From Siphonodentalium dalli (Eukaryota > Mollusca > Scaphopoda > Gadilida > Siphonodentaliidae): a stretch of 64,000 nucleotides of DNA. The DNA lies in contig CP136068.1 of assembly GCA_032622095.1 (NCBI GenBank), positions 53,314,443 through 53,378,442 of the forward strand, written 5' to 3'. A program made the translations under genes and the position numbers. Within the stretch, counting starts at the first letter, position 1, and each line of letters begins with the position of its first letter. Of this stretch, positions 4,211-63,409 are shown piece after piece. The notes beneath the pieces are model-generated. The model was given only the letters and a program-made list of their open reading frames with translations. It was not told the DNA's origin and did not search any database.

Positions 4211-4348
4211 CACAAAATATTTATAATCATTCAACAGCTTATCACATTGCTCATGGCTGAGTACCGGGATGTTCGTTAGAAAGCCATCTTGCCAAAATAC
4301 CTCCTCTTGTTCTCTAGAAAATTCATACTTCTTAAAATCAGTCCGATC
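4211..4348 (-). CDS. PhyH-like dioxygenase, exon 2
   Basis: Exon of 46 codons, phase 0 on both sides, with acceptor TCTTTTTCAG|GAT and donor GTG|GTAAGT on the minus strand. It encodes a stretch beginning DRTDFKKYEFSREQEE, followed by VFWQDGFLTNIPVLSHEQCD and KLLNDYKYFV. The pattern of a short charged lead, then F-x-x-D/N-G-F-hydrophobic, then L-x-x-E-x-C-D-K-L is typical of the start of the PhyH fold, where the enzyme begins the double-stranded beta-helix scaffold. The true frame differs from the long open frame that runs through the adjoining satellite, so the exon is defined by splice sites and not by that frame. The 27-bp array starts only 16 bp upstream of the acceptor in transcript terms. 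Catalytic residues (HxD...H) would be in later exons. Confidence 0.78.
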
Positions 4349-5448
4349 CTGAAAAAGATTTTGTGGAGATGGTTCAATCTAACTTCACATCGGAGATGAT
4401 TCAATCTAACTTCACATCGGAGATGATTCAATCTTACTTCACATCGGAGATGATTCAATCTTACTTCACATCGGAGATGGTTCAATCTAACTTCACATCG
4501 GAGATGATTCAATCTAACTTCATATCGGAGATGATTCAATCTAACTTCATATCGGAGATGATTCAATCTAACTTCATATCGGAGATGATTCAATCTAACT
4601 TCATATCGGAGATGATTCAATCTAGCTTCATATCGGAGATTATTCAATCTAACTTCACATCGGAGATGATTCAATCTAAATTCATATCGGAGATTATTCA
4701 ATCTAACTTCACATCGGAGATGATTCAATCTAAATTCATATCGGAGATGATTCAATCTAACTTCACATCGGAGATGGTTCAATCTAACTTCACATCGGAG
4801 ATGATTCAATCTAACTTCATATCGGAGATGATTCAATCTAACTTCACATCGGAGATGGTTCAATCTAACTTCATATCGGAGATGATTCAATCCAACTTCA
4901 CATCGGAGATGATTCAATCTAACTTCACATCGGAGATGGTTCAATCTAACTTCACATCGGAGATGATTCAATCTAACTTCACATCGGAGATGGTTCAATC
5001 TAACTTCATATCGGAGATGATTCAATCTTACTTCATATCGGAGATGATTCAATCTAACTTCATATCGGAGATGATTCAATCTAACTTCATATCGGAGATG
5101 ATTCAATCTAACTTCACATCGGAGATGATTCAATCTTACTTCATATCGGAGATGATTCAATCTAACTTCATATCGGAGATGATTCAATCTAACTTCATAT
5201 CGGAGATGATTCAATCTAACTTCACATCGGAGATGATTCAATCTAACTTCATATCGGAGATGATTCAATCTAACTTCACATCGGAGATGATTCAATCTAA
5301 CTTCATATCGGAGATGATTCAATCTAACTTCACATCGGAGATGATTCAATCTAACTTCACATCGGAGATGATTCAATCTTACTTCATATCGTAGATGATT
5401 CAATCTAATTTCATATCGGAGATGATTCAATCTAACTTCATATCGTAG

Positions 5449-6933
5449 ATGATTCAATCTAACTTCATATCGGAGATGATTCAATCTAACTTCACATCGG
5501 AGACGATTCAATCTAACTTCATATCGGAGATGATTCAATCTAACTTCACATCGGAGATGATTCAATCTAACTTCATATCGGAGATGATTCAATCTAATTT
5601 CATATCGGAGATGATTCAATCTAACTTCACATCGGAGATGATTCAATCTTACTTCATATCGGAGATGATTCAATCTAACTTCATATCGGAGATGATTCAA
5701 TCTAACTTCACATCGGAGATGATTCAATCTTACTTCATATCGGAGATGATTCAATCTAACTTCATATCGGAGATGATTCAATCTAACTTCATATCGGAGA
5801 TGATTCAATCTTACTTCATATCGGAGATGATTCAATCTTACTTCACATCGGAGATGATTCAATCTAACTTCATATCGGAGATGATTCAATCTTACTTTAT
5901 ATCGGAAATGATTCAATCTAACTTCATATCGGAGATGATTCAATCTTACTTCACATCGGAGATGATTCAATCTAACTTTATATCGGAGATGATTCAATCT
6001 AACTTCATATCGGAGATGATTCAATCTAACTTCATATCGGAGATGATTCAATCTTACTTCATATCGGAGATGATTCAATCTAACTTCATATCGGAGATGA
6101 TTCAATCTAACTTCACATCGGAGATGATTCAATCTAACTTCACATCGGAGATGATTCAATCTTACTTCATATCGGAGATGGTTCAATCTAACTTCACATC
6201 GGAGATGATACAATCTAACTTCATATCGGAGATGATTCAATCTAACTTCACATCGGAGATGGTTCAATCTAACTTCACATCGGAGATGATTCAATATAAC
6301 TTCATATCGGAGATGATTCAATCTAACTTCACATCGGAGATGATTCAATCTAACTTCATATCGGAGATGATTCAATCTTACTTCACATCGGATATGATTC
6401 AATCTAACTTCGTATCGGAGATGATTGAAGCTATCTTCACATCGGAGATGGTTCAATCTAACTTCACATCGGAGATGATTCAATCTAAATTCATATCGGA
6501 GATGATTCAATCTAACTTCATATCGGAGATGGTTCAATCTAACTTCAGATCGGAGATGATTCAATCTAACTTCACATCGGAGATGATTCAATCTTACTTC
6601 ATATCGGAGATGATTCAATCTAACTTCATATCGGAGATGATTCAATCTAACTTCACATCGGAGATGATTCAATCTTACTTCATATCGGAGATGATTCAAT
6701 CTAACTTCACATCGGAGATGATTCAATCTTACTTCTTATCGGAGATGATTCAATCTAACTTCATATCGGAGATGATTCAATCTAACTTCATATCGGAGAT
6801 GATTCAATCTAACTTCATATCGGAGATGATTCAATCTAACTTCACATCGGAGATGATTCAATCTTACTTCATATCGGAGATGATTCAATCTTACTTCATA
6901 TCGGAGATGATTCAATCTTACTTCATATCGTAG
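5449..6933. repeat. Higher-order satellite block 1 (55 units)
   Basis: A block of exactly 55 monomers (1,485 bp) delimited by TCGTAG variants that break the plus frame. It starts with an ordered set of variants, including a GAGACGATT monomer in third position. The same order recurs in the blocks starting at 6934, 8095 and 9580. Confidence 0.85.
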
Positions 6934-8094
6934 ATGATTCAATCAAACTTCATATCGGAGATGATTCAATCTAACTTCACATCGGAGACGATTCAATCTA
7001 ACTTCATATCGGAGATGATTCAATCTAACTTCACATCGGAGATGATTCAATCTAACTTCATATCGGAGATGATTCAATCTAATTTCATATCGGAGATGAT
7101 TCAATCTAACTTCACACCGGAGATGATTCAATCTTACTTCATATCGGAGATGATTCAATCTAACTTCATATCGGAGATGATTGAATCTAACTTCACATCG
7201 GAGATGATTCAATCTTACTTCATATCGGAGATGATTCAATCTAACTTCATATCGGAGATGATTCAATCTAACTTCATATCGGAGATGATTCAATCTTACT
7301 TCATATCGGAGATGATTCAATCTTACTTCACATCGGAGATGATTCAATCTAACTTCATATCGGAGATGATTCAATCTTACTTCATATCGGAGATGATTCA
7401 ATCTAAATTCATATCGGAGATGATTCAATCTAACTTCATATCGGAGATGATTCAATCAAACTTCATATCGGAGATGATTCAATCTAACTTCATATCGGAG
7501 ATGATTCAATCAAACTTCACATCGGAGATGATTCAATCTAACTTCACATCGGAGATGGTTCAATCTAACTTCACATCGGAGATGATTCAATCTAACTTCA
7601 TATCGGAGATGATTCAATCTAACTTCATATCGGAGATGATTCAATCAAACTTCACATCGGAGATGATTCAATCTAACTTCACATCGGAGATGGTTCAATC
7701 TAACTTCATATCGGAGATGATTCAATCTAACTTCATATCGGAGATGATTCAATCTAACTTCATATCGGAGATGATTCAATCAAACTTCACATCGGAGATG
7801 ATTCAATCTAAATTCATATCGGAGATGATTCAATCTAACTTCACATCGGAGATGGTTCAATCTAACTTCACATCGGAGATGATTCAATCTAACTTCATAT
7901 CGGAGATGATTCAATCTAACTTCACATCGGAGATGGTTCAATCTAACTTCATATCGGAGATGATTCAATCCAACTTCACATCGGAGATGATTCAATCTAA
8001 CTTCACATCGGAGATGGTTCAATCTAACTTCACATCGGAGATGATTCAATCTAACTTCACATCGGAGATGATTCAATCTAACTTCATATCGTAG
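6934..8094. repeat. Higher-order satellite block 2 (43 units)
   Basis: 43 monomers (1,161 bp). It repeats the opening order of block 1, including the GAGACGATT third monomer, then diverges and carries extra TCAAAC monomers. The shorter length suggests unequal exchange within the block. Confidence 0.8.
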
Positions 8095-9579
8095 ATGATT
8101 CAATCTAACTTCATATCGGAGATGATTCAATCTAACTTCACATCGGAGACGATTCAATCTAACTTCATATCGGAGATGATTCAATCTAACTTCACATCGG
8201 AGATGATTCAATCTAACTTCATATCGGAGATGATTCAATCTAATTTCATATCGGAGATGATTCAATCTAACTTCACATCGGAGATGATTCAATCTTACTT
8301 CATATCGGAGATGATTCAATCTAACTTCATATCGGAGATGATTGAATCTAACTTCACATCGGAGATGATTCAATCTTACTTCATATCGGAGATGATTCAA
8401 TCTAACTTCATATCGGAGATGATTCAATCTAACTTCATATCGGAGATGATTCAATCTTACTTCATATCGGAGATGATTCAATCTTACTTCACATCGGAGA
8501 TGATTCAATCTAACTTCATATCGGAGATGATTCAATCTTACTTTATATCGGAAATGATTCAATCTAACTTCATATCGGAGATGATTCAATCTTACTTCAC
8601 ATCGGAGATGATTCAATCTAACTTTATATCGGAGATGATTCAATCTAACTTCATATCGGAGATGATTCAATCTAACTTCATATCGGAGATGATTCAATCT
8701 TACTTCATATCGGAGATGATTCAATCTAACTTCATATCGGAGATGATTCAATCTAACTTCACATCGGAGATGATTCAATCTAACTTCACATCGGAGATGA
8801 TTCAATCTTACTTCATATCGGAGATGGTTCAATCTAACTTCACATCGGAGATGATACAATCTAACTTCATATCGGAGATGATTCAATCTAACTTCACATC
8901 GGAGATGGTTCAATCTAACTTCACATCGGAGATGATTCAATCTAACTTCATATCGGAGATGATTCAATCTAACTTCACATCGGAAATGATTCAATCTAAC
9001 TTCATATCGGAGATGATTCAATCTTACTTCACATCGGAGATGATTCAATCTTACTTCACATCGGATATGATTCAATCTAACTTCGTATCGGAGATGGTTC
9101 AATCTAACTTCACATCGGAGATGATTCAATCTAAATTCATATCGGAGATGATTCAATCTAACTTCATATCGGAGATGGTTCAATCTAACTTCAGATCGGA
9201 GATGATTCAATCTAACTTCACATCGGAGATGATTCAATCTTACTTCATATCGGAGATGATTCAATCTAACTTCATATCGGAGATGATTCAATCTAACTTC
9301 ACATCGGAGATGATTCAATCTTACTTCATATCGGAGATGATTCAATCTAACTTCACATCGGATATGATTCAATCTTACTTCATATCGGAGATGATTCAAT
9401 CTAACTTCATATCGGAGATGATTCAATCTAACTTCATATCGGAGATGATTCAATCTAACTTCATATCGGAGATGATTCAATCTAACTTCACATCGGAGAT
9501 GATTCAATCTTACTTCATATCGGAGATGATTCAATCTTACTTCATATCGGAGATGATTCAATCTTACTTCATATCGTAG
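8095..9579. repeat. Higher-order satellite block 3 (55 units)
   Basis: 55 monomers (1,485 bp), the same length as block 1. Comparing the encoded nonapeptides one by one, nearly every monomer variant is in the same place. Differences are a few point changes and one monomer gained plus one lost near unit 35. Confidence 0.85.
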
Positions 9580-10929
9580 ATGATTCAATCAAACTTCATA
9601 TCGGAGATGATTCAATCTAACTTCACATCGGAGACGATTCAATCTAACTTCATATCGGAGATGATTCAATCTAACTTCACATCGGAGATGATTCAATCTA
9701 ACTTCATATCGGAGATGATTCAATCTAATTTCATATCGGAGATGATTCAATCTAACTTCACATCGGAGATGATTCAATCTTACTTCATATCGGAGATGAT
9801 TCAATCTAACTTCATATCGGAGATGATTGAATCTAACTTCACATCGGAGATGATTCAATCTTACTTCATATCGGAGATGATTCAATCTTACTTCATATCG
9901 GAGATGATTCAATCTAACTTCATATCGGAGATGATTCAATCTAACTTCATATCGGAGATGATTCAATCTTACTTCACATCGGAGATGATTCAATCTAACT
10001 TCATATCGGAGATGATTCAATCTTACTTCATATCGGAGATGATTCAATCTAAATTCATATCGGAGATGATTCAATCTAACTTCATATCGGAGATGATTCA
10101 ATCTAACTTCATATCGGAGATGATTCAATCTAACTTCACATCGGAGATGATTCAATCTTACTTCATATCGGAGATGATTCAATCTAACTTCATATCGGAG
10201 ATGATTCAATCTTACTTCACATCGGAGATGATTCAATCTAACTTTATATCGGAGATGATTCAATCTAACTTCATATCGGAGATGATTCAATCTAACTTCA
10301 TATCGGAGATGATTCAATCTTACTTTATATCGGAAATGATTCAATCTAACTTCATATCGGAGATGATTCAATCTTACTTCACATCGGAGATGATTCAATC
10401 TAACTTTATATCGGAGATGATTCAATCTAACTTCATATCGGAGATGATTCAATCTAACTTCATATCGGAGATGATTCAATCTTACTTCATATCGGAGATG
10501 ATTCAATCTAACTTCATATCGGAGATGATTCAATCTAACTTCACATCGGAGATGATTCAATCTAACTTCACATCGGAGATGATTCAATCTAACTTCACAT
10601 CGGAGATGATTCAATCTTACTTCATATCGGAGATGGTTCAATCTAACTTCACATCGGAGATGATTCAATCTAACTTCACATCGGAGATGGTTCAATCTAA
10701 CTTCACATCGGAGATGATTCAATCTAACTTCATATCGGAGATGATTCAATCTAACTTCACATCGGAGAAGATTCAATCTAACTTCATATCGGAGATGATT
10801 CAATCTTACTTCACATCGGATATGATTCAATCTAACTTCGTATCGGAGATGATTCAATCTAACTTCCTATCGGAGATGATTCAATCTAACTTCATATCGG
10901 AGATGATTCAATCTAACTTCACATCGTAG
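9580..10929. repeat. Higher-order satellite block 4 (50 units)
   Basis: 50 monomers (1,350 bp). It opens with the same variant order and contains internal duplications of sub-blocks. After it the array loses the block pattern toward 12216. Confidence 0.8.
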
Positions 10930-12216
10930 ATGATTCAATCTAACTTCATATCGGAGATGATTCAAGCTAACTTCATATCGGAGATGATTGAAGCTATCTT
11001 CACATCGGAGATGGTTCAATCTAACTTCACATCGGAGATGATTCAATCTAAATTCATATCGGAGATGATTCAATCTAACTTCATATCGGAGATGGTTCAA
11101 TCTAACTTCACATCGGAGATGATTCAATCTTACTTCATATCGGAGATGGTTCAATCTAACTTCATATCGGAGATGATTCAATCTAACTTCACATCGGAGA
11201 TGATTCAATCTTACTTCATATCGGAGATGATTCAATCTAACTTCATATCGGAGATGATTCAATCTAACTTCACATCGGAGATGGTTCAATCTAAGTTCAT
11301 ATCGGAGATGATTCAATCTAACTTCATATCGGAGATGATTCAATCTAAATTCACATCGGAGATGATTCAATCTAACTTCACATCGGAGATGGTTCAATCT
11401 AACTTCACATCGGAGATGATTCAATCTAACTTCATATCGGAGATGATTCAATCTAACTTCATATCGGAGATGATTCAATCTAACTTCATATCGGAGATGA
11501 TTCAATCTTACTTCATATCGGAGATGATTCAATCTAACTTCATATCGGAGATGATTCAATCTTACTTCATATCGGAGATGATTCAATCTAACTTCATATC
11601 GGAGATGATTCAATCTAACTTCATATCGGAGATGATTCAATCTAACTTCATATCGGAGATGATTCAATCTAAATTCATATCGGAGATGATTCAATCTTAC
11701 TTCATATCGGAGATGATTCAATCTAACTTCACATCGGAGATGATTCAATCTAACTTCACATCGGAGATGATTCAATCTAACTTCATATCGGAGATGATTC
11801 AATCTAAATTCATATCGGAGATGATTCAATCTAACTTCATATCGGAGATGATTCAATCTAAATTCATATCGGAGATGATTCAATCTAACTTCATATCGGA
11901 GATGATTCAATCTAACTTCATATCGGAGGTGATTCAATCTTACTTCACATCGTAGTTGATTCAATCTAACTTCACATCGGAGATGATTCAATCTTACTTC
12001 ATATCGGAGACGATTCAATCTAACTTCACATCGGAGATGATTCAATCTAACTTCATATCAGAGATGATTCAATCTAACTTCATATCGGAGATGATTCAAT
12101 CTAAATTCATATCGGAGATGATTCAATCTAAATTCACATCGGAGATGATTCAATCTAACTTCATATCGGAGATGATTCAATCTAACTTCATATCGGAGAT
12201 GATTCAATCTTACTTC

Positions 12217-12972
12217 TGAAAGAAAACCGAATATGTTACTTCAGAATTCTGCCGAAATATGCGAGGAATATATAATTCCACCGTTTTTAGCAGAAGCACT
12301 TCACATGCCAAAAATAAGCGATTTAGAGAATAACCGATCGCTGGAATATCTCAATAAAGTCCGGGAAGAATTAAAATGCGTTCATATTCTAACGTTCAAA
12401 AACGAAATATTCGATGACAACAAGAAAAATGGTATGAATAAATTAAGAACGTATCGTTGTTTCAAAGAACAATATGAAATTGAACCATACTTACTCCAAA
12501 TTACTAATTTTTATACGAGATCGTGTTTCAGTAAGCTTAGAGTAAGCAATCATATGTTGCAGGTAGAGGTTGGGCGACACGCTCAGCCAAAAATATCTTT
12601 CGAAAAACGCATATGTAAAAAATGTGAAGCAAATGAAATTGAAACGGAAGAACACTTTATAATGAGATGTGAAAAACATAACCATTTGCGGAAGAGATTT
12701 TTCACTGAAATAGGAGTTCACCAACCAATTTTCATAAACTTTGATGAAATAGAAAAGTTCATATTCCTCATGAAGGCTGAACACCCGAGCATATGCAATC
12801 TGATCTGTAACATGGTTCGGCAGTTTTCCGCAAATAATTGAGAATATAGTGTTGAGTTACAAATACATGTTATATATATTTATATGAAATTGTCTTGACT
12901 TGTGTTTAAATTATCTGTATTATGACAACTGCCCCGCGTGGGTGTATTATGTCAATAAAAATGTTAATGTTA
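12217..12972 (+). mobile_element. LINE 3' fragment inserted in the 27-bp satellite
   Basis: 756 bp of unrelated sequence interrupts the 27-bp array. On the left the array stops after ...CAATCTTACTTC and on the right it resumes with ATATCGGAGATG, exactly the next bases of the unit, so no satellite base was gained or lost. The insert contains the C-terminal LINE coding fragment at 12233-12841 and a short 3' UTR ending in AATAAAAATGTTAATGTTA, a typical LINE-type microsatellite tail. No target duplication is discernible, although one of a few bases could hide in the repeat. Confidence 0.8.
12233..12841 (+). pseudogene. C-terminal part of a LINE-type polyprotein (zinc-ribbon tail)
   Basis: 202 codons with a proper stop, 5'-truncated by retrotransposition. 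The middle (NKLRTYRCFK, then FSKLRVSNHMLQVEVGRH) and a C-x2-C-x10-H-x4-C cluster (ICKKCEANEIETEEHFIMRC) match the C-terminal domain found after the reverse transcriptase in many invertebrate LINEs, where it is thought to bind nucleic acid. No reverse transcriptase domain is left. The frame is also open leftward through the satellite, which is meaningless. A similar tail domain occurs at 36110-36556. Confidence 0.7.
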
Positions 12973-13743
12973 ATATCGGAGATGATTCAATCTAACTTCA
13001 CATCGGAGATGATTCAATCTAACTTCATATCGGAGATGATACAATCTAACTTCACATCGGAGATGATTCAATCTAACTTCATATCGGAGATGGTTCAATC
13101 TAAATTCATATCGGAGATGATTCAATCTAACTTCATATCGGAGATGATTCAATCTAACTTCATATCGGAGATGATTCAATCTAACTTCATATCGGAGATG
13201 ATTCAATCTAACTTCACATCGGAGATGATTCAATCTAACTTCATATCGGAGATGGTTCAATCTAACTTCATATCGGAGATGATTCAATCTTACTTCATAT
13301 CGGAGATGATTCAATCTAACTTCATATCGGAGATGATTCAATCTAACTTCATATCGGAGATGATTCAATCTAACTTCATATCGGAGATGGTTCAATCTAA
13401 ATTCATATCGGAGATGATTCAATCTAACTTCATATCGGAGATGATTCAATCTTACTTCATATCGGAGATGATTCAATCTAACTTCACATCGGAGATGATT
13501 CAATCTAACTTCATATCGGAGATGATTCAATCTAACTTCATATCGGAGATGGTTCAATCTAACTTCATATCGGAGATGGTTCAATCTAAATTCATATCGG
13601 AGATGATTCAATCTAACTTCAAATCGGAGATGATTCAATCTAACTTCATATCGGAGATGGTTCAAGCTAACTTCACATCGGAGATGATTCAATCTAACTT
13701 CACATCGGAGATGGTTCAATCTAACTTCACATCGGATATGGTT
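12973..13743. repeat. 27-bp satellite array, right part (about 28 units)
   Basis: Continuation of the same 27-bp array after the LINE insertion, ending with divergent units (CATCGGATATGGTTCACATC). It carries more GATGGTT and TCTAAATTC variants than the left part and no TCGTAG markers. Confidence 0.95.
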
Positions 13744-13866
13744 CACATCGGGTATAGCACGATTCGTTATTGTGAGATACTGGGAATAAAATGCCAAAAT
13801 GTTGTTAAAACAATTGGGAATTATAAAGATAATAGTTCAGAGCCATTATAGTTGTGTGTTGTTCGC
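13744..13866. other. Single-copy-looking spacer between two satellites
   Basis: About 120 bp of AT-rich sequence joins the 27-bp and 34-bp arrays. I see no gene or motif in it. Confidence 0.5.
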
Positions 13867-28279: not shown

Positions 28280-28780
28280 GATCAATATGAAGTTTGGTGA
28301 CTATCAGATGAGGGATATGTCTGTACAGTTGCTAAACAATTCAGTCATGCAAAAGAGTAAAATACCAAATTGCTGCCTGTGGTCATGTTTTTTAACGAAA
28401 TTCGGAAAAATTAGATTACTCTCACCCTGCTTATCCAGAAGATCATTGTGGAATCTGGTGACGATCGGACGAGGGGTGTCGTCTGTAGGATCAACCAAAT
28501 TAATTAGCCATAAAAATAGTAAAATTCAAGATCACCGCTGGCAGTGATGTTTTTACAAGGAAAGTTTGAGAACAAAATAAGACTCACATCTAGCGGTGAC
28601 CCAAAATATCCACATGAGAAAAAGTTCTCCAATAAAAGCTGGCTGCAGGGTGCGCCAATTGATTCAAATTTGAAATTTAGCAGGGTGTACTGCTGGTGGC
28701 CATGTTTACCCCGCAAATTTGATAAACTGATGGACAAACCCACTGAATCCGTTGAATCAATATACATGTATACATGGATT
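28280..28780. repeat. Dispersed ~190-bp repeat, interrupted by the LINE
   Basis: Units with GAAGTTTGGTGACTATCAGA and GACGATCGGACGAGGGGTGT; the complement is seen at 54050-54790 (ATCATCACCAAACTTCA) and a related unit at 31840-31990. It gives the spurious N-terminal extension of the LINE frame. Confidence 0.65.
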
Positions 28781-28846
28781 CATTTATATGCATTGTTATA
28801 CACAGTATCGGTATATAAAGGTACTGAAAATAACTATATTACTATA

Positions 28847-31282
28847 GTAATATCATACCATCATGCCATCATACAGGAGGCTGATACCAACAATGTTGTT
28901 GTTCTTGGCGATTTTAACGCATGTGCGATCAGAAATACAGGCAACATGAGTGAATTAGCGGAGTTCTGTAAAGATTCATCTTTGATAATGTCGGATGTTA
29001 ATTTTTTCGGACAGGCATCCAATACATTCACATTCCTTAGTGCGGCACATGGCTCTGTGTCATGGTTAGATCACTGTATATGTACGACATCGATGGATTC
29101 CGCTGTTGCGGCAATGGAGATAAATTACGATTACCTGACCTCCGACCACTTTCCGTTAATTGTGTCGATAAAATCTGATCTTCTTCCTGTGTGTAGCCCA
29201 TCTACTTCTGTTTCGACAACAAGACATAATATAAACTGGAAATGTACCAACTCAGCGCAAATGGATAAATATTGTTATTTATCCGGACAATTATTGAGAA
29301 AAATTAATTTTGAAATATTAACGAATGACACTGATGGCAATCAGTTTCGAGACACCCATGATAAAAGCTCCATTATTGACAAAATATACGAACATATTAT
29401 CGACGCCCTAAAGAAATCTTCCACCGATTGTTTAACTGTAAACTCTAACGGAACAGACAGATTCAGTCCAATACCTGGATGGAATTTACATGTGAAGCGT
29501 TTGCACAGTGAAGCTAGGGAAATATTCTCTATATGGGTTAATCAAGGAAGACCTCGATATGGATACATTTATGACACTATGTGTCGAAGACGATCGATAT
29601 TCAAATCCGCTCTGAGAAAATGCAAATCGAACGTTGAGCAGATGAAGGCTGATGAACTAGCTAAGAACCTATGTAGTAACAATTTAAATGCATTTTGGAA
29701 ATCTGTTTCAAAAGGAGCCAAATGTGGAAACGCAAACTCGATAGGTGGAGCAAATGGCGAGGCTGATATTACCGAGATGTGGGGCGAACATTTCAGAAAC
29801 GTCTTTTCCAACAATGATGAATCAGTGGACAACAAGTGCATAGGTACCAACGACAACAATTTCGGGTCAACGCAAGGCGATGCAATCATAACTGTTACTG
29901 AAACTGATGTGATCGATGCGGTAAACAAACTTAAGACTGGTAAGTCTGCGGGACCAGATGATATAACGGCTGAGCACTTAAAATTCTGCGACAGCCATAT
30001 TTTCACGTGCCTTACGATAATCTTCAATGCTATAATCAAACATGGACACCTTCCCCCAAATTTGTTGAAAGTGACCCTTGTGCCAATCTTGAAAAATAAA
30101 GCTGGGAATATTGCCGACAAAGACAACTACCGTCCAGTGGCGTTATCCTGTGTTATTTCAAAAGTATTGGAAATGGTGTTATTCAATAAATGCTCTGAAC
30201 AATTATATACCACAGACAACCAGTTTGGTTTTAAAAAAGATCATTCAACGGACGGCTGCATATTTGCATTAAAAGAAGCGATACGACATTATAATTCTAA
30301 GGATACTCCTGTTTTCGTGTGCTTCTTGGACGCAAGTAAAGCGTTCGATCGTGTCAACCAGGAAATTCTACTACGACATCTAAAGCAACGATCAGTGCCA
30401 TCAGCTATTATTCGGATCCTTAAGAACTGGTTTCTAAATCAGATGTATCATGTTCGCTGGGGACAGACATACTCGACATGCTTCCGGCCCACGACTGGTG
30501 TTAGACAGGGCGCTATATTAAGCCCTTATTTATTTAATGTGTATATCAACGAGATTAGCGAAAGACTGAATACATGTGACGTTGGGTGCATTGTTGGCAG
30601 TGCAAAAATCAATCATTTATGTTATGCTGATGATATGTGTATTATTGCACCATCTTTGGAGGGACTACGTCGTTTGTTGAGAATATGTGAACACGAGGCT
30701 AAGAAGATTTATTTAACTTATAATATTATAAAAACTGTGGGGATGACTTTTATCCCTAAATCTCTTCATATTCGGTCATTTCCAAAACTATACTTAATGG
30801 GCAATGAACTCAAGTTCGTGTCCTCCTATAAGTATCTCGGACATATACTCAACAACGAATTTTCCGATGATAATGATATTATGCGCCAATATCGGTCTAT
30901 ATGCTCACGCTCAAATATGCTTATTAGAAAGTTTTACAAATGTTCGCCCAATGTGAAAATGTATTTATTTAAAATGTTCGTATCTCCATTATATTGTGCT
31001 CATCTTTGGATTAACTATACCAAACGTTGTTATAGAAAACTTACAGTTTGTTATAATAATGCATATAGAAAATTTATGGGTTATGAGAGATCATGTAGTG
31101 CGAGTGGGATGTTTGTAGGTGACAGAATGTGTTCTCTGACAGTGCTGATTCGAAAGGGTGTGTATGGATTTCGTGTGAGAATTTATAAATCTTTAAACAG
31201 TATTTTGAATGCTATTTGTAACTCAGATCTGATCTATCGGTCAAATCTATTCAATCATTGGAATCAACTTCTTTATATTTAA
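28847..31282 (+). CDS. Non-LTR retrotransposon ORF2: partial endonuclease plus reverse transcriptase
   Basis: An uninterrupted frame of about 811 codons. It begins inside an APE-type endonuclease domain: GDFNA at 28907, then SWLDHCICT and SDHFPL, which are the later catalytic blocks. After a basic linker comes a complete reverse transcriptase: the K-x-G-K-S-A-G-P-D-D-I block near 29940, D-N-Y-R-P-V-A-L, F-L-D-A-S-K-A-F-D-R (first catalytic Asp), G-V-R-Q-G-A-I-L-S-P-Y-L-F-N, and the active-site Y-A-D-D at 30623-30634, followed by thumb sequence Y-K-Y-L-G-H. The N-terminal part of the endonuclease and any ORF1 are missing, so this is a 5'-truncated copy. The frame is open further upstream to 28544, but that part is an unrelated dispersed repeat. 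No frameshift or stop in 2.4 kb suggests a recent insertion. Clade not assigned. Confidence 0.9.
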   Translation, partial: VISYHHAIIQEADTNNVVVLGDFNACAIRNTGNMSELAEFCKDSSLIMSDVNFFGQASNTFTFLSAAHGSVSWLDHCICTTSMDSAVAAMEINYDYLTSDHFPLIVSIKSDLLPVCSPSTSVSTTRHNINWKCTNSAQMDKYCYLSGQLLRKINFEILTNDTDGNQFRDTHDKSSIIDKIYEHIIDALKKSSTDCLTVNSNGTDRFSPIPGWNLHVKRLHSEAREIFSIWVNQGRPRYGYIYDTMCRRRSIFKSALRKCKSNVEQMKADELAKNLCSNNLNAFWKSVSKGAKCGNANSIGGANGEADITEMWGEHFRNVFSNNDESVDNKCIGTNDNNFGSTQGDAIITVTETDVIDAVNKLKTGKSAGPDDITAEHLKFCDSHIFTCLTIIFNAIIKHGHLPPNLLKVTLVPILKNKAGNIADKDNYRPVALSCVISKVLEMVLFNKCSEQLYTTDNQFGFKKDHSTDGCIFALKEAIRHYNSKDTPVFVCFLDASKAFDRVNQEILLRHLKQRSVPSAIIRILKNWFLNQMYHVRWGQTYSTCFRPTTGVRQGAILSPYLFNVYINEISERLNTCDVGCIVGSAKINHLCYADDMCIIAPSLEGLRRLLRICEHEAKKIYLTYNIIKTVGMTFIPKSLHIRSFPKLYLMGNELKFVSSYKYLGHILNNEFSDDNDIMRQYRSICSRSNMLIRKFYKCSPNVKMYLFKMFVSPLYCAHLWINYTKRCYRKLTVCYNNAYRKFMGYERSCSASGMFVGDRMCSLTVLIRKGVYGFRVRIYKSLNSILNAICNSDLIYRSNLFNHWNQLLYI

Positions 31283-45361: not shown

Positions 45362-45756
45362 ATGTTTTGGCGCTTATTTCGAAGACATCGATTATCCATC
45401 AAAACTTTAGTGGTGTTTTTGCTCGTGATCGGCATCATATATTATTTTTCTGAGCGGCTAAACTATGCCAACGGATCTGAATCTCAGTCGCACCAGCGAG
45501 AATCTGGCAATAATGAGAGGTTATCTCATTTGTCTGCACTCGGTGATAAGCATTTTGAACTGCGTATGAAACGTTATAGAGACTATCAGAAATCACAAGA
45601 CGCCAGGACGGGTCCTGGCGAAAAAGGACAGGCTTTAATATTACATGGAGAAGAAAAAGAAAAGGGGGAGGAACTCTACAAAAAAGAAGCTTTCAACATT
45701 GTTGCCAGTGATAAAATATCATTGGAAAGGTCTGTTCCTGATGTCCGAGACCCGCA
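45362..45756 (+). CDS. Polypeptide GalNAc-transferase, exon 1 (cytosolic tail, membrane anchor, stem)
   Basis: First coding exon of a type II Golgi glycosyltransferase that adds GalNAc from UDP-GalNAc to Ser/Thr of secreted proteins (mucin-type O-glycosylation, GT27). The ATG is the first Met after an in-frame TAG at 45347-45349, with A at -3. Residues 1-14 are basic (MFWRLFRRHRLSIK), residues 15-29 form one hydrophobic anchor (TLVVFLLVIGIIYYF), and a charged stem follows. The end (EAFNIVASDKISLERSVPDV) is the conserved F-N-x-x-x-S-D-x-I-x-L-x-R-x-x-P-D family signature at the start of the catalytic unit. Donor GCA|GTAAGT leaves phase 2. Subfamily is not assigned. Intron 1 (45757-50787) holds a hAT element, a MITE and other repeats. 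Confidence 0.92.
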
Positions 45757-50787: not shown

Positions 50788-50954
50788 ATGCAGGAGTCTA
50801 AGTTATCCCTCAGATCTGCCAACAGCTAGTGTAATCATCATATTTCATAATGAGGCTTGGTCACCTCTTCTAAGGACAGCCCACTCAGTCGTCAATCGAT
50901 CGCCACCCGAGTATCTACAAGAAGTTATACTGTTAGATGATTTCAGTGATCGAC
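50788..50954 (+). CDS. Polypeptide GalNAc-transferase, exon 2 (start of GT-A catalytic domain)
   Basis: Exon of 167 nt, acceptor TAAACTTTCAG|A, entering in phase 2 (CA+A) and leaving in phase 1 at GATCGAC|GTATGT. It encodes [40 protein letters not shown] and [15 protein letters not shown]. The V-I-I-x-F-H-N-E-A-W-S-x-L-L-R-T block and the L-L/V-D-D-F/Y-S end are hallmark GT27 sequences of the nucleotide-binding Rossmann-like part. It joins without gap to exon 1 (VPDVRDPQ-CRSLSY). The exon sits between two 68-bp direct repeats (50670-50737 and 51013-51080) that differ at two positions. Confidence 0.93.
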
Positions 50955-57665: not shown

Positions 57666-57796
57666 AGTTAATAGTATCGCGATCGACGGTTGATCGCCAC
57701 ATAAGTTATGATGGAACTTCATGGAAGTTCATAGAACGTTTCAAACATCTAATCGTTGGCAAAACATGCCTAATTGAGAATGCAACACACCTGTAT

Positions 57797-57975
57797 AATT
57801 CGATTCGATAATCGATTCGATAATCGATTCGATAATCGATTCGATAATCGATTCGATAATCGATTCGATAATCGATTCGATAATCGATTCGATAATCGAT
57901 TCGATAATCGATTCGATAATCGATTCGATAATCGATTCGATATTCGATTCGATAATCGATTCGATATTCGATTCG
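57797..57975. repeat. 12-bp array CGATTCGATAAT
   Basis: About 14 perfect or near-perfect 12-bp units next to the right end of the inner hAT. Since 12 is a multiple of 3, both strands show short repeat frames, which are artefacts. Confidence 0.95.
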
Positions 57976-58920
57976 AATTCTTCAATTCGATTCGATATTC
58001 GATTCGATCAAAATCTCCAATTCGCAGGACCCTACATTTAACCTAATATTTTGAGGATTATTCACGTTCACATTCAACTGACAACGGGATGCGGTTACGT
58101 CCGGTTCATTTTTTTCTAACCGGTTACGTCGCTAACCGGATGCTAACCGGTTAACCGTCTAACCGTTTCAGCTCTAGTTATGCCCCTTATTTGACGTTTT
58201 TTTACTTAGAAAATCCTTGAAATTTGTTGTCCGGATGATAACTTTAGTATAGTTTATCGGAATGAATCCAAATTTGGTATATTACTTTCTCCCACCAAAA
58301 CACAGGTCAAGTTCGAACTTGGGTTCTGTCCGACCATTTTTGGCAGAGTTATGCCCCTTTTTCGACAGTTTTTCTTATGTTTTTTTGTTTCCGGATGATA
58401 TCTCGATTTTGGAATGTTTATATGCAAAACCCGTTTTTTTGTGGATTACATATATCGAAATACAGCTCAAGTCCGAATTTCGTTTTAATCCGATAATTTT
58501 TGCGAGAGTTATGGCCCCTTTTTTTTACGTAATTTGACTTAGAAAATCCCTGAAATTTGTTGTCCGGATTATAACTTAGTTAGAGTGAACCGATTTCAAT
58601 CAAATTTGGTATGTGGGTTTATTAGGAGAAAAGACAGCTCAAGTTCGAATTTGGGTTCCGTCCGCCAATTTTCACCGGAGTTATGCCCCTTATTTGATGT
58701 AATTTGACTTAGAAAATCCCTGAAATTTGTTGTCCAGATGATAACTTTACTAGAGCTTATTGGTTTCAATGATAATTTGGTATATTACTTTCTCCCACCA
58801 AAACACAGGTCAAGTTCAAATTTGAGTTCCGTCTGCCAATTTTTACCAGAGTTATGCCCCTTTTTTACCAGTTTCCGCCGACCCAAGAGAGGGCGTATTT
58901 TGCACGCCCAGCGTAGCTCT

Positions 58921-59317: not shown

Positions 59318-59740
59318 TAAAATAATAAATATGTATTGATGACCCATGTCTGGAAACGCTTCTATCAATTAATATTGATTTTATTCCGAATATTTTATTA
59401 TAAAATGAGATGATAAATTGGGACACTTTATTGTTTCCCATAGCTATGATCCGAATGTCAAATATCCCAGTTTGATTGTTTGTATTGTTTTATAAGCGAT
59501 AATGAGTCTAATTATGAGTCTAATTGTTTTATAAGCGATAATGAGTCTAAATTAACATTTATTTGTGATGAAATTACACAATAAAAGTTATGGTCTCTGT
59601 TAACAGTAACCACTATTGTTCGTTAGCTAAACAACCACACATTTTCAGACCAGAAAATATTTGAAATACATATATAATCATTATTAATCAATAGAAGCAT
59701 TTCCAGACAGGGGTATTTGATTCATATCTAATATTTTATA
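59318..59740. mobile_element. Fold-back MITE, family copy 2
   Basis: Inverted ends with TAAAATAATAAATATG / TATAAAATATTAGATATG and CTTCTATCAATTAATATTGA, the same family as 3008-3400. The inverted region is about 70 bp per side. The 50-bp array starts at its right edge. Confidence 0.75.
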
Positions 59741-60930
59741 CCTGGTAACTATATAACACATGTTTACAAAGAGATAGACCATGTTTATACCCCAGTAACT
59801 ATATAAAACATGTTTACAAAGAGATAGACCATCTTTATACCCCGGTAACTATATAACACATGTTTACAAAGAGATAGACCATCTTTATACCCCGGTAACT
59901 ATATAACACATGTTTACAAAGAGATAGACCATCTTTATACCCCGGTAACTATATAACACATGTTTACAAAGAGATAGACCATCTTTATACCCCGGTAACT
60001 ATATATCACATGTTTACAAAGAGATAGACCATCTTTTTACCCCGGTAACTATATAAAACATGTTTACAAAGAGATAGGCCATCTTTATAACCCGGTAACT
60101 ATATAACACATGTTTACAAAGAGATAGACCATCTTTATACCCCGGTAACTATATAACACATGTTTACAAAGAGATAGACCATCTTTAAACCCCGGTAACT
60201 ATATAAAACATGTTTACAAAGATATAGGCCATCTTTATACCCCGGTAACTATATAACACATGTTTACAAAGAGATAGACCATATTTATACCCCGGTAACT
60301 ATATAACACATGTTTACAAAGATATAGACCATCTTTATACCCCGGTAACTATATAACACATGTTTACAAAGAGATAGGCCATCTTTATACCCCGGTAACT
60401 ATATAACACATGTTTAGGCCATCTTTATACCCCGGTAACTATATAACACATGTTTACAAAGAGATAGACCATCTTTATACCCCGGTAACTATATAACACA
60501 TGTTTACAAAGAGATAGACCATCTTTATACCCCGGTAACTATATAACACATGTTTACAAAGAGATAGACCATCTTTATACCCCGGTAACTATATAACACA
60601 TGTTTACAAAGAGATAGACCATCTTTTTACCCCGGTAACTATATAACACATGTTTACAAAGAGATAGACCATCTTTATACCCCGGTAACTATATAACACA
60701 TGTTTACAAAGAGATAGACCATCTTTATACCCCGGTAACTATATAACACATGTTTACAAAGAGATAGACCATCTTTATACACCGTTAACTATATAACACA
60801 TGTTTACAAAGAGATAGACCATCTTTATACCCCGGTAACTATATAACACATGTTTACAAAGAGATTGACCATCTTTATACACCGGTAACTATATAAAACA
60901 TGTTTACAAAGAGACAGACCATCTTTAACT
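59741..60930. repeat. 50-bp minisatellite, about 24 units
   Basis: Exact 50-bp period (CCCCGGTAACTATATAACAC, ATGTTTACAAAGAGATAGAC, CATCTTTATA) with very few differences. One unit near 60410 lacks 13 bp. Located in GALNT intron 3. Confidence 0.97.
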
Positions 60931-62404: not shown

Positions 62405-62836
62405 ACTAATGGTATCCAGAATGTACTTTATATATCTAACAACCTGAATTAATGGTATCCAGAATGTACTTTATATATCTAACAACCTGTATTAATGGTA
62501 TCCAGAATGTACTCATACATTGTACATCTAACAACCTGAATTAATGGTATCCAGAATGTACTTCATATATCTAACAACCTGAATTAATGGTATCCAGAAT
62601 ATACTTCATATATCTAACAACCTGTATTAATGGTATCCAGAATGTACTTCATACATTGTGTATCTAACAACCTGAATTAATGTTATCCAGAATGTACTTC
62701 ATATATCTAACAACCTGAATTAATGGTATCCAGAATGTACTTCATATGGTATATCTAACAACCTGTATTAATGGTATCCAGAATGTACTTCATATGGTAT
62801 ATCTAACAACCTGTATTAATGGTATCCAGATTGTAA
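62405..62836. repeat. ~44-bp minisatellite just upstream of exon 4A
   Basis: About ten units with AATGGTATCCAGAATGTACT, TCATATATCTAACAACCTG and A/TATT; some units are longer through an inserted ATTGTA or GGTAT. It ends about 105 bp before exon 4A of the GALNT gene. Confidence 0.93.
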
Positions 62837-62942: not shown

Positions 62943-63146
62943 GTTAGAACCACTCTTGTCTCGAATAAAGCAAGATAGAACAGCTGTACTTTGTCCAGAA
63001 ATTGATATGATAGACAAGATGGACCTGCGCTATGCCGGCACGGGGAGTTATTCTGTGGGAGGCTTCTGGTGGAGTCTTCATTTCTCCTGGCGACCGATGC
63101 CAGAACACGAGAGAGCTCGTCGACGATCCTCTACAGATCCTATTAG
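62943..63146 (+). CDS. Polypeptide GalNAc-transferase, alternative exon 4A
   Basis: Exon of 204 nt (68 codons), acceptor TTTCAAATTCTTAG|G and donor CCTATTAG|GTAACT, phase 2 in and out. It encodes LEPLLSRIKQDRTAVLCPEI ... YSVGGFWWSLHFSWRPMPEH and ends DPIR. This is the GT27 block directly after the DxH motif (W-L-E-P-L-L ... V-x-C-P-x-I-D ... GGF-x-W-x-L-x-F-x-W ... P-I-R). F47 and W49 of the exon correspond to what I recall as Phe280/Trp282 of human GALNT2, part of the acceptor-peptide pocket. Its paralogue exon 4B starts 59 bp downstream. Both join the same upstream exon in frame, so exactly one would normally be used. A degenerate ~44-bp tandem array ends about 105 bp upstream of this exon. 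Confidence 0.93.
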
Positions 63147-63205
63147 GTAACTGTTTGTCATGAATAAAAATATTCACATACCCTGTTTACCATTTGAATC
63201 TGCAG
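63147..63205 (+). other. 59-bp intron between alternative exons 4A and 4B
   Basis: Begins GTAACT and ends CTGCAG. It contains the polypyrimidine region of exon 4B and little else; such a short distance makes joining 4A to 4B difficult in many animals. Confidence 0.8.
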
Positions 63206-63409
63206 GCTGGAGCCTCTTCTAGCAAGGATCAAAGAAGACAGAACATCAGTATTATGTCCAATCGTTGATCTAATTCATGATGTAAATTTGGGATACTCAT
63301 TGAATGGAGGTTATCAGCCTGGCGGGTTCTCATGGAGTTTACATTTTACATGGGAGGAAGTTCCTGAACGTGAAAAACGTAGGCGTACGAAAACCACAGA
63401 GCCTCTGAG
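63206..63409 (+). CDS. Polypeptide GalNAc-transferase, alternative exon 4B
   Basis: Second version of the preceding exon, also exactly 204 nt and phase 2 in and out, with acceptor TTTGAATCTGCAG|G and donor CCTCTGAG|GTAAAT. It encodes LEPLLARIKEDRTSVLCPIV ... YQPGGFSWSLHFTWEEVPER and ends EPLR. By my manual alignment 38 of 68 residues equal those of 4A with no gaps. Invariant family positions are kept in both (LEPLL, DRT, CP, GGF, W-S-L-H-F-x-W, R-R). Differences cluster at exon residues 19-38 and 50-64; after the shared Trp, RPM in 4A is replaced by acidic EEV. No stop or frameshift is present, so both look functional. The rest of the catalytic domain and any lectin domain lie beyond the window. 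Confidence 0.92.

Follow-up and report, generated by a model that had tools for sequence, protein, structure and literature searches.

The window analysed here is the whole 64,000-nucleotide stretch of the scaphopod Siphonodentalium dalli genome from position 53,314,443 to 53,378,442 of contig CP136068.1 (forward strand; GCA_032622095.1); the source assembly comprises 2.23 Gb in nine contigs. A GalNAc-transferase gene of 36.6 kb lies on the + strand and was traced beyond the window end. Four relatives were compared by tblastn with 122 kb (the window plus 58 kb), the results given being those for two of them. The features of the gene are as follows, coordinates above 64,000 being window-extended and beyond the window.

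45362-45756, + strand: exon 1, with start codon, transmembrane anchor and stem; open reading frame with a hydrophobic segment, donor gtaagt; 43% identity to the relative P0028 (tblastn)
50788-50954, + strand: exon 2, start of the catalytic domain; ag/gt borders; 89% identity to P0028
53542-53719, + strand: exon 3, catalytic domain with the DSH (DxH) motif, the last TG being part of the shared Trp codon; ag/gt borders; frame fits exon 2 and exons 4A/4B
62407-62835, no strand: minisatellite with a 43/135-bp unit (Tandem Repeats Finder), ending 107 nt upstream of exon 4A
62943-63146, + strand: exon 4A (A type, GGFWWSLHFSWRP), a putative alternative exon for the acceptor groove, 204 nt long with ag/gt borders; identity of 75% with the A-type relative P0038 and 82% with the Pinctada A segment
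63147-63205, + strand: intron 4A/4B, 59 nt, a possible steric block to 4A-4B joining, from its length, the branch-point-like A at 30 and 43 and the threshold in PMC7969005
63206-63409, + strand: exon 4B (B type, GGFSWSLHFTWEE), a putative alternative exon for the acceptor groove, 204 nt long with ag/gt borders; identity of 68% with the B-type relative P0028
65997-66114, + strand: exon 5
69083-69170, + strand: exon 6
70725-70822, + strand: exon 7
76861-76995, + strand: exon 8
starts at 77611, 78244 and 81793, + strand: three lectin exons, borders read by eye; the stop codon ends at 81933

Exons 2 to 8 have ag/gt borders throughout and their joined frame is open. Among the 12 coding exons, counting 4A and 4B, exon 4 is the only doubled one: with one A-type and one B-type relative, each coding exon was matched once by tblastn and exon 4 alone twice. 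The predicted product has an anchor, a GT-A domain with DSH and WGGEN and a C-terminal lectin domain, as expected of a GT27 polypeptide GalNAc-transferase. The best whole-sequence PDB match of the joined exons 1-8 was GalNAc-T1 (E 1.1e-132), followed by PGANT9, and relatives are annotated as GALNT9-, 1- or 13-like, many of them as GALNT9-like. The fly PGANT9 segment, together with a Timema row, fell outside the A/B group in the tree of the segment. A genome search with 4B returned 4B, 4A and four weaker GalNAc-T-like places on the same contig (G000:C8:157134583, 157387632, 28604161 and 33752733).

The minisatellite upstream of exon 4A is perhaps without any role. Further minisatellites were found at 57795-58008 (12 bp) and 59735-60927 (50 bp). 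A stop-to-stop frame of 919 residues at 28523-31282 has reverse-transcriptase-like motifs, and we take it to be probably a LINE-like element. Long short-repeat stretches extend over about 4276-13851, with several frames open on both strands and a unit of about nine codons, MIQSNFISE.

Exons 4A and 4B are each flanked by AG and GT, are each 204 nt long and have equal phases. The G from either exon completes the TG|G (Trp) codon after exon 3; both exons end in AG, and the A of exon 5 completes an Arg. The preliminary description of this DNA had proposed two adjacent 204-nt exons of equal phase that both complete a Trp, encoding versions of a 68-residue segment with 38 identities. Borders and frame bear out the former, and the latter agrees with 37 of 67 identical residues in BLASTP (E 9e-30), or 38 of 68 when the shared last Arg is counted. 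Its placing of the segment directly after DxH is right as to downstream position and loose as to distance, some seven residues lying between the His and the shared Trp. The two exons are homologous neighbours that share their phases and have valid splice sites, which is the structure of a mutually exclusive tandem pair. Searched alone, each exon matched 15 distinct GalNAc-T sequences in the PDB (best E 8.3e-17 for 4B and 2.4e-16 for 4A); a Pfam search with each 67-residue piece by itself assigned no family at E up to 0.1.

At the nucleotide level 110 of 201 positions are identical, and at third codon positions 21 of 67, so the duplication is old and a recent or assembly copy is argued against. 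The idea of collapsed gene paralogues, raised in the same description, was looked at and not upheld: an assembly or collapsed-paralogue artefact is ruled out by these two figures and by the position of both exons within one traced gene. Joining of 4A to 4B keeps the frame and doubles the segment, whereas skipping of both joins exon 3 to exon 5 and yields a TGA stop; the reading frame thus polices skipping and not double inclusion.

We consider it probable that the locus holds an old tandem-duplicated, mutually exclusive exon pair of a protostome GalNAc-transferase, kept exclusive sterically and switching the acceptor groove; exclusive use, steric mechanism, substrate difference and tissue regulation are what we infer. 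Splicing would place one of the two, 4A or 4B, between exon 3 and exon 5. Joining of 4A to 4B would be hindered by the shortness of the 59-nt intron, in which the 5' splice site and the branch point lie too close together, and skipping of both would be blocked by the stop codon. The two resulting enzymes would share anchor, catalytic core and lectin domain and differ in the wall of the acceptor-peptide groove. The family starts mucin sugar chains, and one gene would here probably give two enzymes choosing different proteins.

Exon 4 corresponds approximately to residues 234-301 of GalNAc-T2 (PDB sequence) and 219-286 of T1. The peptide groove of T2 is described as eight residues, Val255, Leu270, Phe280, Trp282, Tyr284, Phe361, His365 and Phe377, and the change Trp282Ala almost eliminates activity (PMC4432651). 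Five of the eight (255, 270, 280, 282 and 284) fall inside exon 4; between 4A and 4B, Phe280 and Trp282 stay and 255, 270 and 284 switch. Residue counts come from 51 rows of each type. All 51 A rows and 50 of the B rows have F at position 280, and 51 A and 50 B rows have W at 282. At 255, A rows mostly have L, M or N (21, 10, 8) and B rows A or V (29, 10); at 270, A has S (45) and B has Q, A or N (27, 14, 5); at 284, A has P (39) and B has D, N or S (22, 6, 6). Position 281 is mostly S in A (31) and T in B (50), and 275 is W in A by definition and T or S in B. At 283-285 the window has RPM in 4A and EEV in 4B, directly after the groove Trp, as the preliminary description had it.

Residue 253 of T2, when changed together with 310, lets bulky donors be accepted (PMC7276986). 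It is I in all 51 A rows and I, V or P in B rows (33/17/1), with Ile in 4A and Val in 4B. In a modelled Biomphalaria enzyme, which from its residues we judge to be a different GalNAc-T, three of the four direct peptide contacts lie in the segment (Ile281, Phe308 and Trp310, equal to T2 253, 280 and 282), and none of the listed UDP contacts does (PMC6994419). With peptide contacts inside and the listed UDP contacts outside, the exon would be mainly an acceptor part plus one donor gatekeeper. The proposed swap would thus keep the gripping Phe and Trp and exchange T2 positions 255, 270, 275, 281, 283 and 284 together with the gatekeeper 253 (Ile/Val). The earlier suggestion of two enzymes with different acceptor or donor handling is sound on this basis, the exon apparently covering most of the published acceptor groove and one donor gatekeeper.

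Splicing might be exclusive and the substrates nevertheless the same, the switch serving expression control or folding. The identity of the critical residues 280 and 282 in both versions speaks for this; it is unlikely, however, given the type-specific majority residues kept over phyla at 255, 270 and 284, and given that the fly pgant5 and pgant9 switches alter acceptor preference (PMC12776162; PMC6115407).

Under the reading of a switched acceptor groove, the direction of the change may lie in charge. The net charge (K, R, D, E) is +2 for 4A and 0 for 4B, a small difference. B was more negative in 12 of 18 named pairs (Pinctada, Magallana, Liolophura, Littorina, Batillaria, Biomphalaria, Physella, Mya, Elysia, Lingula, Candidula and Hypsibius; the mixed row 'tx' set aside), and the difference was absent or reversed in six, being nil in Argopecten, Octopus and one Rotaria and opposite, with B less negative, in Gigantopelta, Adineta and the other Rotaria; the A and B of Gigantopelta, like those of Candidula, belong to different genes, and none of the rotifer first copies is a clear B type. 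In the fly, basic mucin repeats are preferred by the isoform whose switched part is negative (PMC6115407; PMC12776162); by analogy, we predict a preference for basic acceptors in B and for neutral or acidic ones in A.

AlphaFold models of Argopecten X1 (A) and X2 (B), made with 42 aligned sequences each, had mean pLDDT values of 90.6 and 86.9. The lowest ten-residue block in the segment reached 85 in X1 and 76 in X2, with the same order of elements. By E-value the top PDB match of both models was fly PGANT9B (TM by target 0.90 and 0.82); GalNAc-T1 (8v9q) had a higher TM to both (0.93 and 0.92). The models suggest that both versions are compatible with the fold; specificity is beyond their reach.

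Relatives were collected in three protein searches, the best 120 of several thousand matches being used from each, which together gave 223 distinct proteins. Between DxH and PTMAGG, mollusc relatives carry an A-type segment (GGFWW...SW), a B-type segment (GGF[ST]W...TW) or both. Annotated A/B isoform pairs with flanks identical at every aligned residue were found in five species, four molluscs (Argopecten, Biomphalaria, Physella and Littorina) and the brachiopod Lingula; in Mya the C flank of the pair differs at 3 of 272 positions. These A/B isoforms of relatives are already in public annotation. Among the best 120 matches of one search, 28 had no ncbi, uniref or nr tags; three of them lie on contigs above 13 kb and the remaining 25 on contigs of at most 3.8 kb. 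Because the gene spans 36.6 kb here, we take the 25 for assembled transcripts. They comprise 13 A, 12 B and none with both, and are not independent, P0017-P0020 and P0025 (five of the 13 A) being near-identical oyster-type sequences and P0097 and P0112 (two of the 12 B) resembling proteins of crustaceans, in which B alone was seen.

Both exons in tandem occur in at least 14 of the 223 proteins, all 14 being among the 92 other matches listed, with ncbi, uniref or nr tags. They include numbered isoforms of Argopecten, Biomphalaria, Physella, Liolophura and Octopus, and in the tardigrade Hypsibius one protein has both, A first, in the order of 4A and 4B. A Nucella model fuses half an A to a B. 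The double models may be prediction artefacts or real transcripts. They would agree, as would the kept frame, with both exons standing together in some or all transcripts and a 68-residue duplication in the catalytic domain. We hold this to be quite improbable: single-exon isoforms with identical flanks stand beside the double models in Argopecten, Biomphalaria, Physella, Liolophura, Octopus and Hypsibius, none of the 25 short-contig entries has both, repetition of a core segment would presumably disrupt the fold, and the intron between the exons is 59 nt long with branch-point-like sites at 30 and 43 nt. The preliminary description's suggestion that the exons are used one at a time is favoured by the relatives' isoform pairs, the short-contig entries, the stop on double skipping and the short intron, and has the gene models with both against it.

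The ten other introns of the gene are far longer than these 59 nt, at 525-9223 nt (5031, 2587, 9223, 2587, 2968, 1554 and 6038 nt, then about 615, 525 and 3417 nt). In the 59-nt intron, two branch-point-like sequence matches (YTNAY) put their A 30 and 43 nt away from the 5' splice site. Between 17 adjacent chaperonin exon pairs of the same genome the gaps were 887-12313 nt, a rough sample taken from profile matches to exons (53 rows), which includes near-copies of the same gene and in which a very short intron read through inside one match would be missed. For OGDH exons 4a/4b, branch points at 25-41 nt from the 5' splice site, a restricted intron size and a proposed steric threshold of about 50 nt are given, and studies of tropomyosin and actinin are cited (PMC7969005). 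The present intron would resemble OGDH 4a/4b, with its alpha-tropomyosin and actinin precedents, in a short distance from 5' splice site to branch point, which was mapped there and is a matter of sequence matches here; we infer that an OGDH-like steric exclusion may operate between 4A and 4B. Splicing does occur at some human introns in the 37-65 nt range (PMC4463651), so the block would not be absolute.

In the land snails Bradybaena (P0052 and P0063) and Candidula (P0219 and P0069), A and B are annotated on different contigs and the flanks have diverged, as if the gene had been duplicated and each copy had kept one exon. The flanks of A and B are 69-80% identical within a species and those of the same type 83-89% identical between species, the Candidula A protein being partial; the A and B paralogues seem to have split before the two genera parted. 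That one exon is likewise a relic in S. dalli, with 4A alone or 4B alone in use, would be in line with these one-type paralogues and with the tree rows, in which all arthropods are B and the one named nematode is A, but is very improbable, since both exons have open frames, splice sites and groove residues conserved despite nearly randomised third positions, which points to continued selection on both.

Isoforms of Procambarus clarkii (P0106, P0107 and P0113) differ at 265-296, the first half of the same groove segment, which suggests that the groove region was made switchable more than once. Separately, they differ at 474-513, at the lectin domain start and near the place of the fly pgant9 switch. 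In models from a butterfly (Danaus P0212) and a moth (Pectinophora P0129), blocks around the DxH region are repeated, possibly as further alternative exons or fused tandem genes.

The age of the pair was approached with trees of the segment, which is only 68 residues long, from 104 of the 223 proteins (118 segments), hand-picked. The A label was defined by the FWW motif, and phyla were assigned from species names. Twelve rows were dropped before the trees (11 isoform repeats and the hybrid Nucella model). In the 112-segment tree A and B separate with 100/90, except for five B-labelled rows on the A side (three rotifer first copies, Solemya P0104 and P0102), and A needs five label changes when the odd rows are included. 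Six odd or long rows (Solemya P0104, P0115 and P0102 and the three rotifer first copies) were left out of a 106-row tree, in which all 51 A rows fall on one side with 100/99. None of the six is in a set of 50 hand-picked rows, for which a site-mixture model also places A on one side (99/99). With the six rows again left out and the five GGFWW columns removed as well, A needs two changes and is one-sided in 0% of bootstrap trees; a tree holding A together then scores 1.05 log units higher. In AU tests in which the own A and B were held together, p was 0.298 for tardigrades, 0.278 for Lingula and 0.132 for the window pair, and separate duplications were not rejected. In the 112-segment tree, exon 4B shares an unstarred branch (94/89) with Ruditapes, Mya, Dreissena and a short-contig entry. 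In the bdelloid rotifers P0095, P0101 and P0109 there are two copies, the A type second; the first is no clear B and was placed beside unnamed A-side rows.

The A side holds molluscs, Lingula, nemerteans, a flatworm, annelids, tardigrades, rotifers and a nematode, and the B rows molluscs, Lingula, annelids, a bryozoan, tardigrades and arthropods. This split across phyla points to a duplication before the separation of Lophotrochozoa and Ecdysozoa. It is likely, as far as the sequences tell, that the A/B pair is ancient and of single origin, and probably older than the split of molluscs and tardigrades; an independent duplication within each phylum would be disfavoured. A fuller history, which we advance tentatively and hold to be somewhat short of probable, is that the groove switch predates the mollusc-tardigrade split, that molluscs, brachiopods and tardigrades kept A and B together in a single gene while arthropods (orthology being assumed) retained just one type and land snails divided the two between two genes, and that one gene gives two O-glycosylation specificities, the choice being made by tissue and independently of the fly switches.

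It is a long-standing question how GalNAc-transferases share out their many acceptor sites among themselves. Two natural enzymes that differ just in the acceptor-groove wall could reveal which groove residues set specificity, and whether splicing, besides gene number, sets mucin-type glycosylation in molluscs. The Biomphalaria enzyme is described as the only characterised mollusc member, and its authors speculated that far fewer forms are expressed in molluscs than in vertebrates (PMC6994419); the 4A/4B pair suggests that splicing adds more mollusc enzyme forms. Literature searches on GalNAc-T splice forms and mollusc exclusive exons, in a library with few subscription journals, listed no paper on this pair.

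Among GalNAc-transferases, three known systems are close to the present one. Tandem duplicated exon substitution in three phyla is reported for GALNT13, Pgant5 and gly-5 (PMC9741552). The genes are named there without their segments, and the portion of that text examined does not say where in C. elegans gly-5 the event lies. The pgant9A/pgant9B switch of the fly, exon 8, is alike in being an alternative homologous exon and a charge switch (PMC6115407). It lies in the lectin alpha repeat, as the preliminary description stated, whereas here the segment is catalytic and the lectin exons are single. That description cited it as the known precedent, but a catalytic-domain switch is already known as well: in fly pgant5A/pgant5B (PMC12776162, a preprint) a segment of the catalytic domain is also swapped and alters peptide preference through charge. 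The pgant5 switch covers PGANT5 398-457, a catalytic loop plus helix-turn-helix, which is about T1 327-386 when the pairing of PGANT5 S420 with T1 A349 in PMC12776162 is carried along, whereas exon 4 is about T1 219-286 (T2 234-301). Exon 4 ends before PTMAGG and WGGEN, and the exons that follow are single, so it is not the Pgant5 catalytic-loop switch. Next to these systems, the 4A/4B pair is new in the segment that it concerns, in how widely it is spread over phyla and in the age it probably has.
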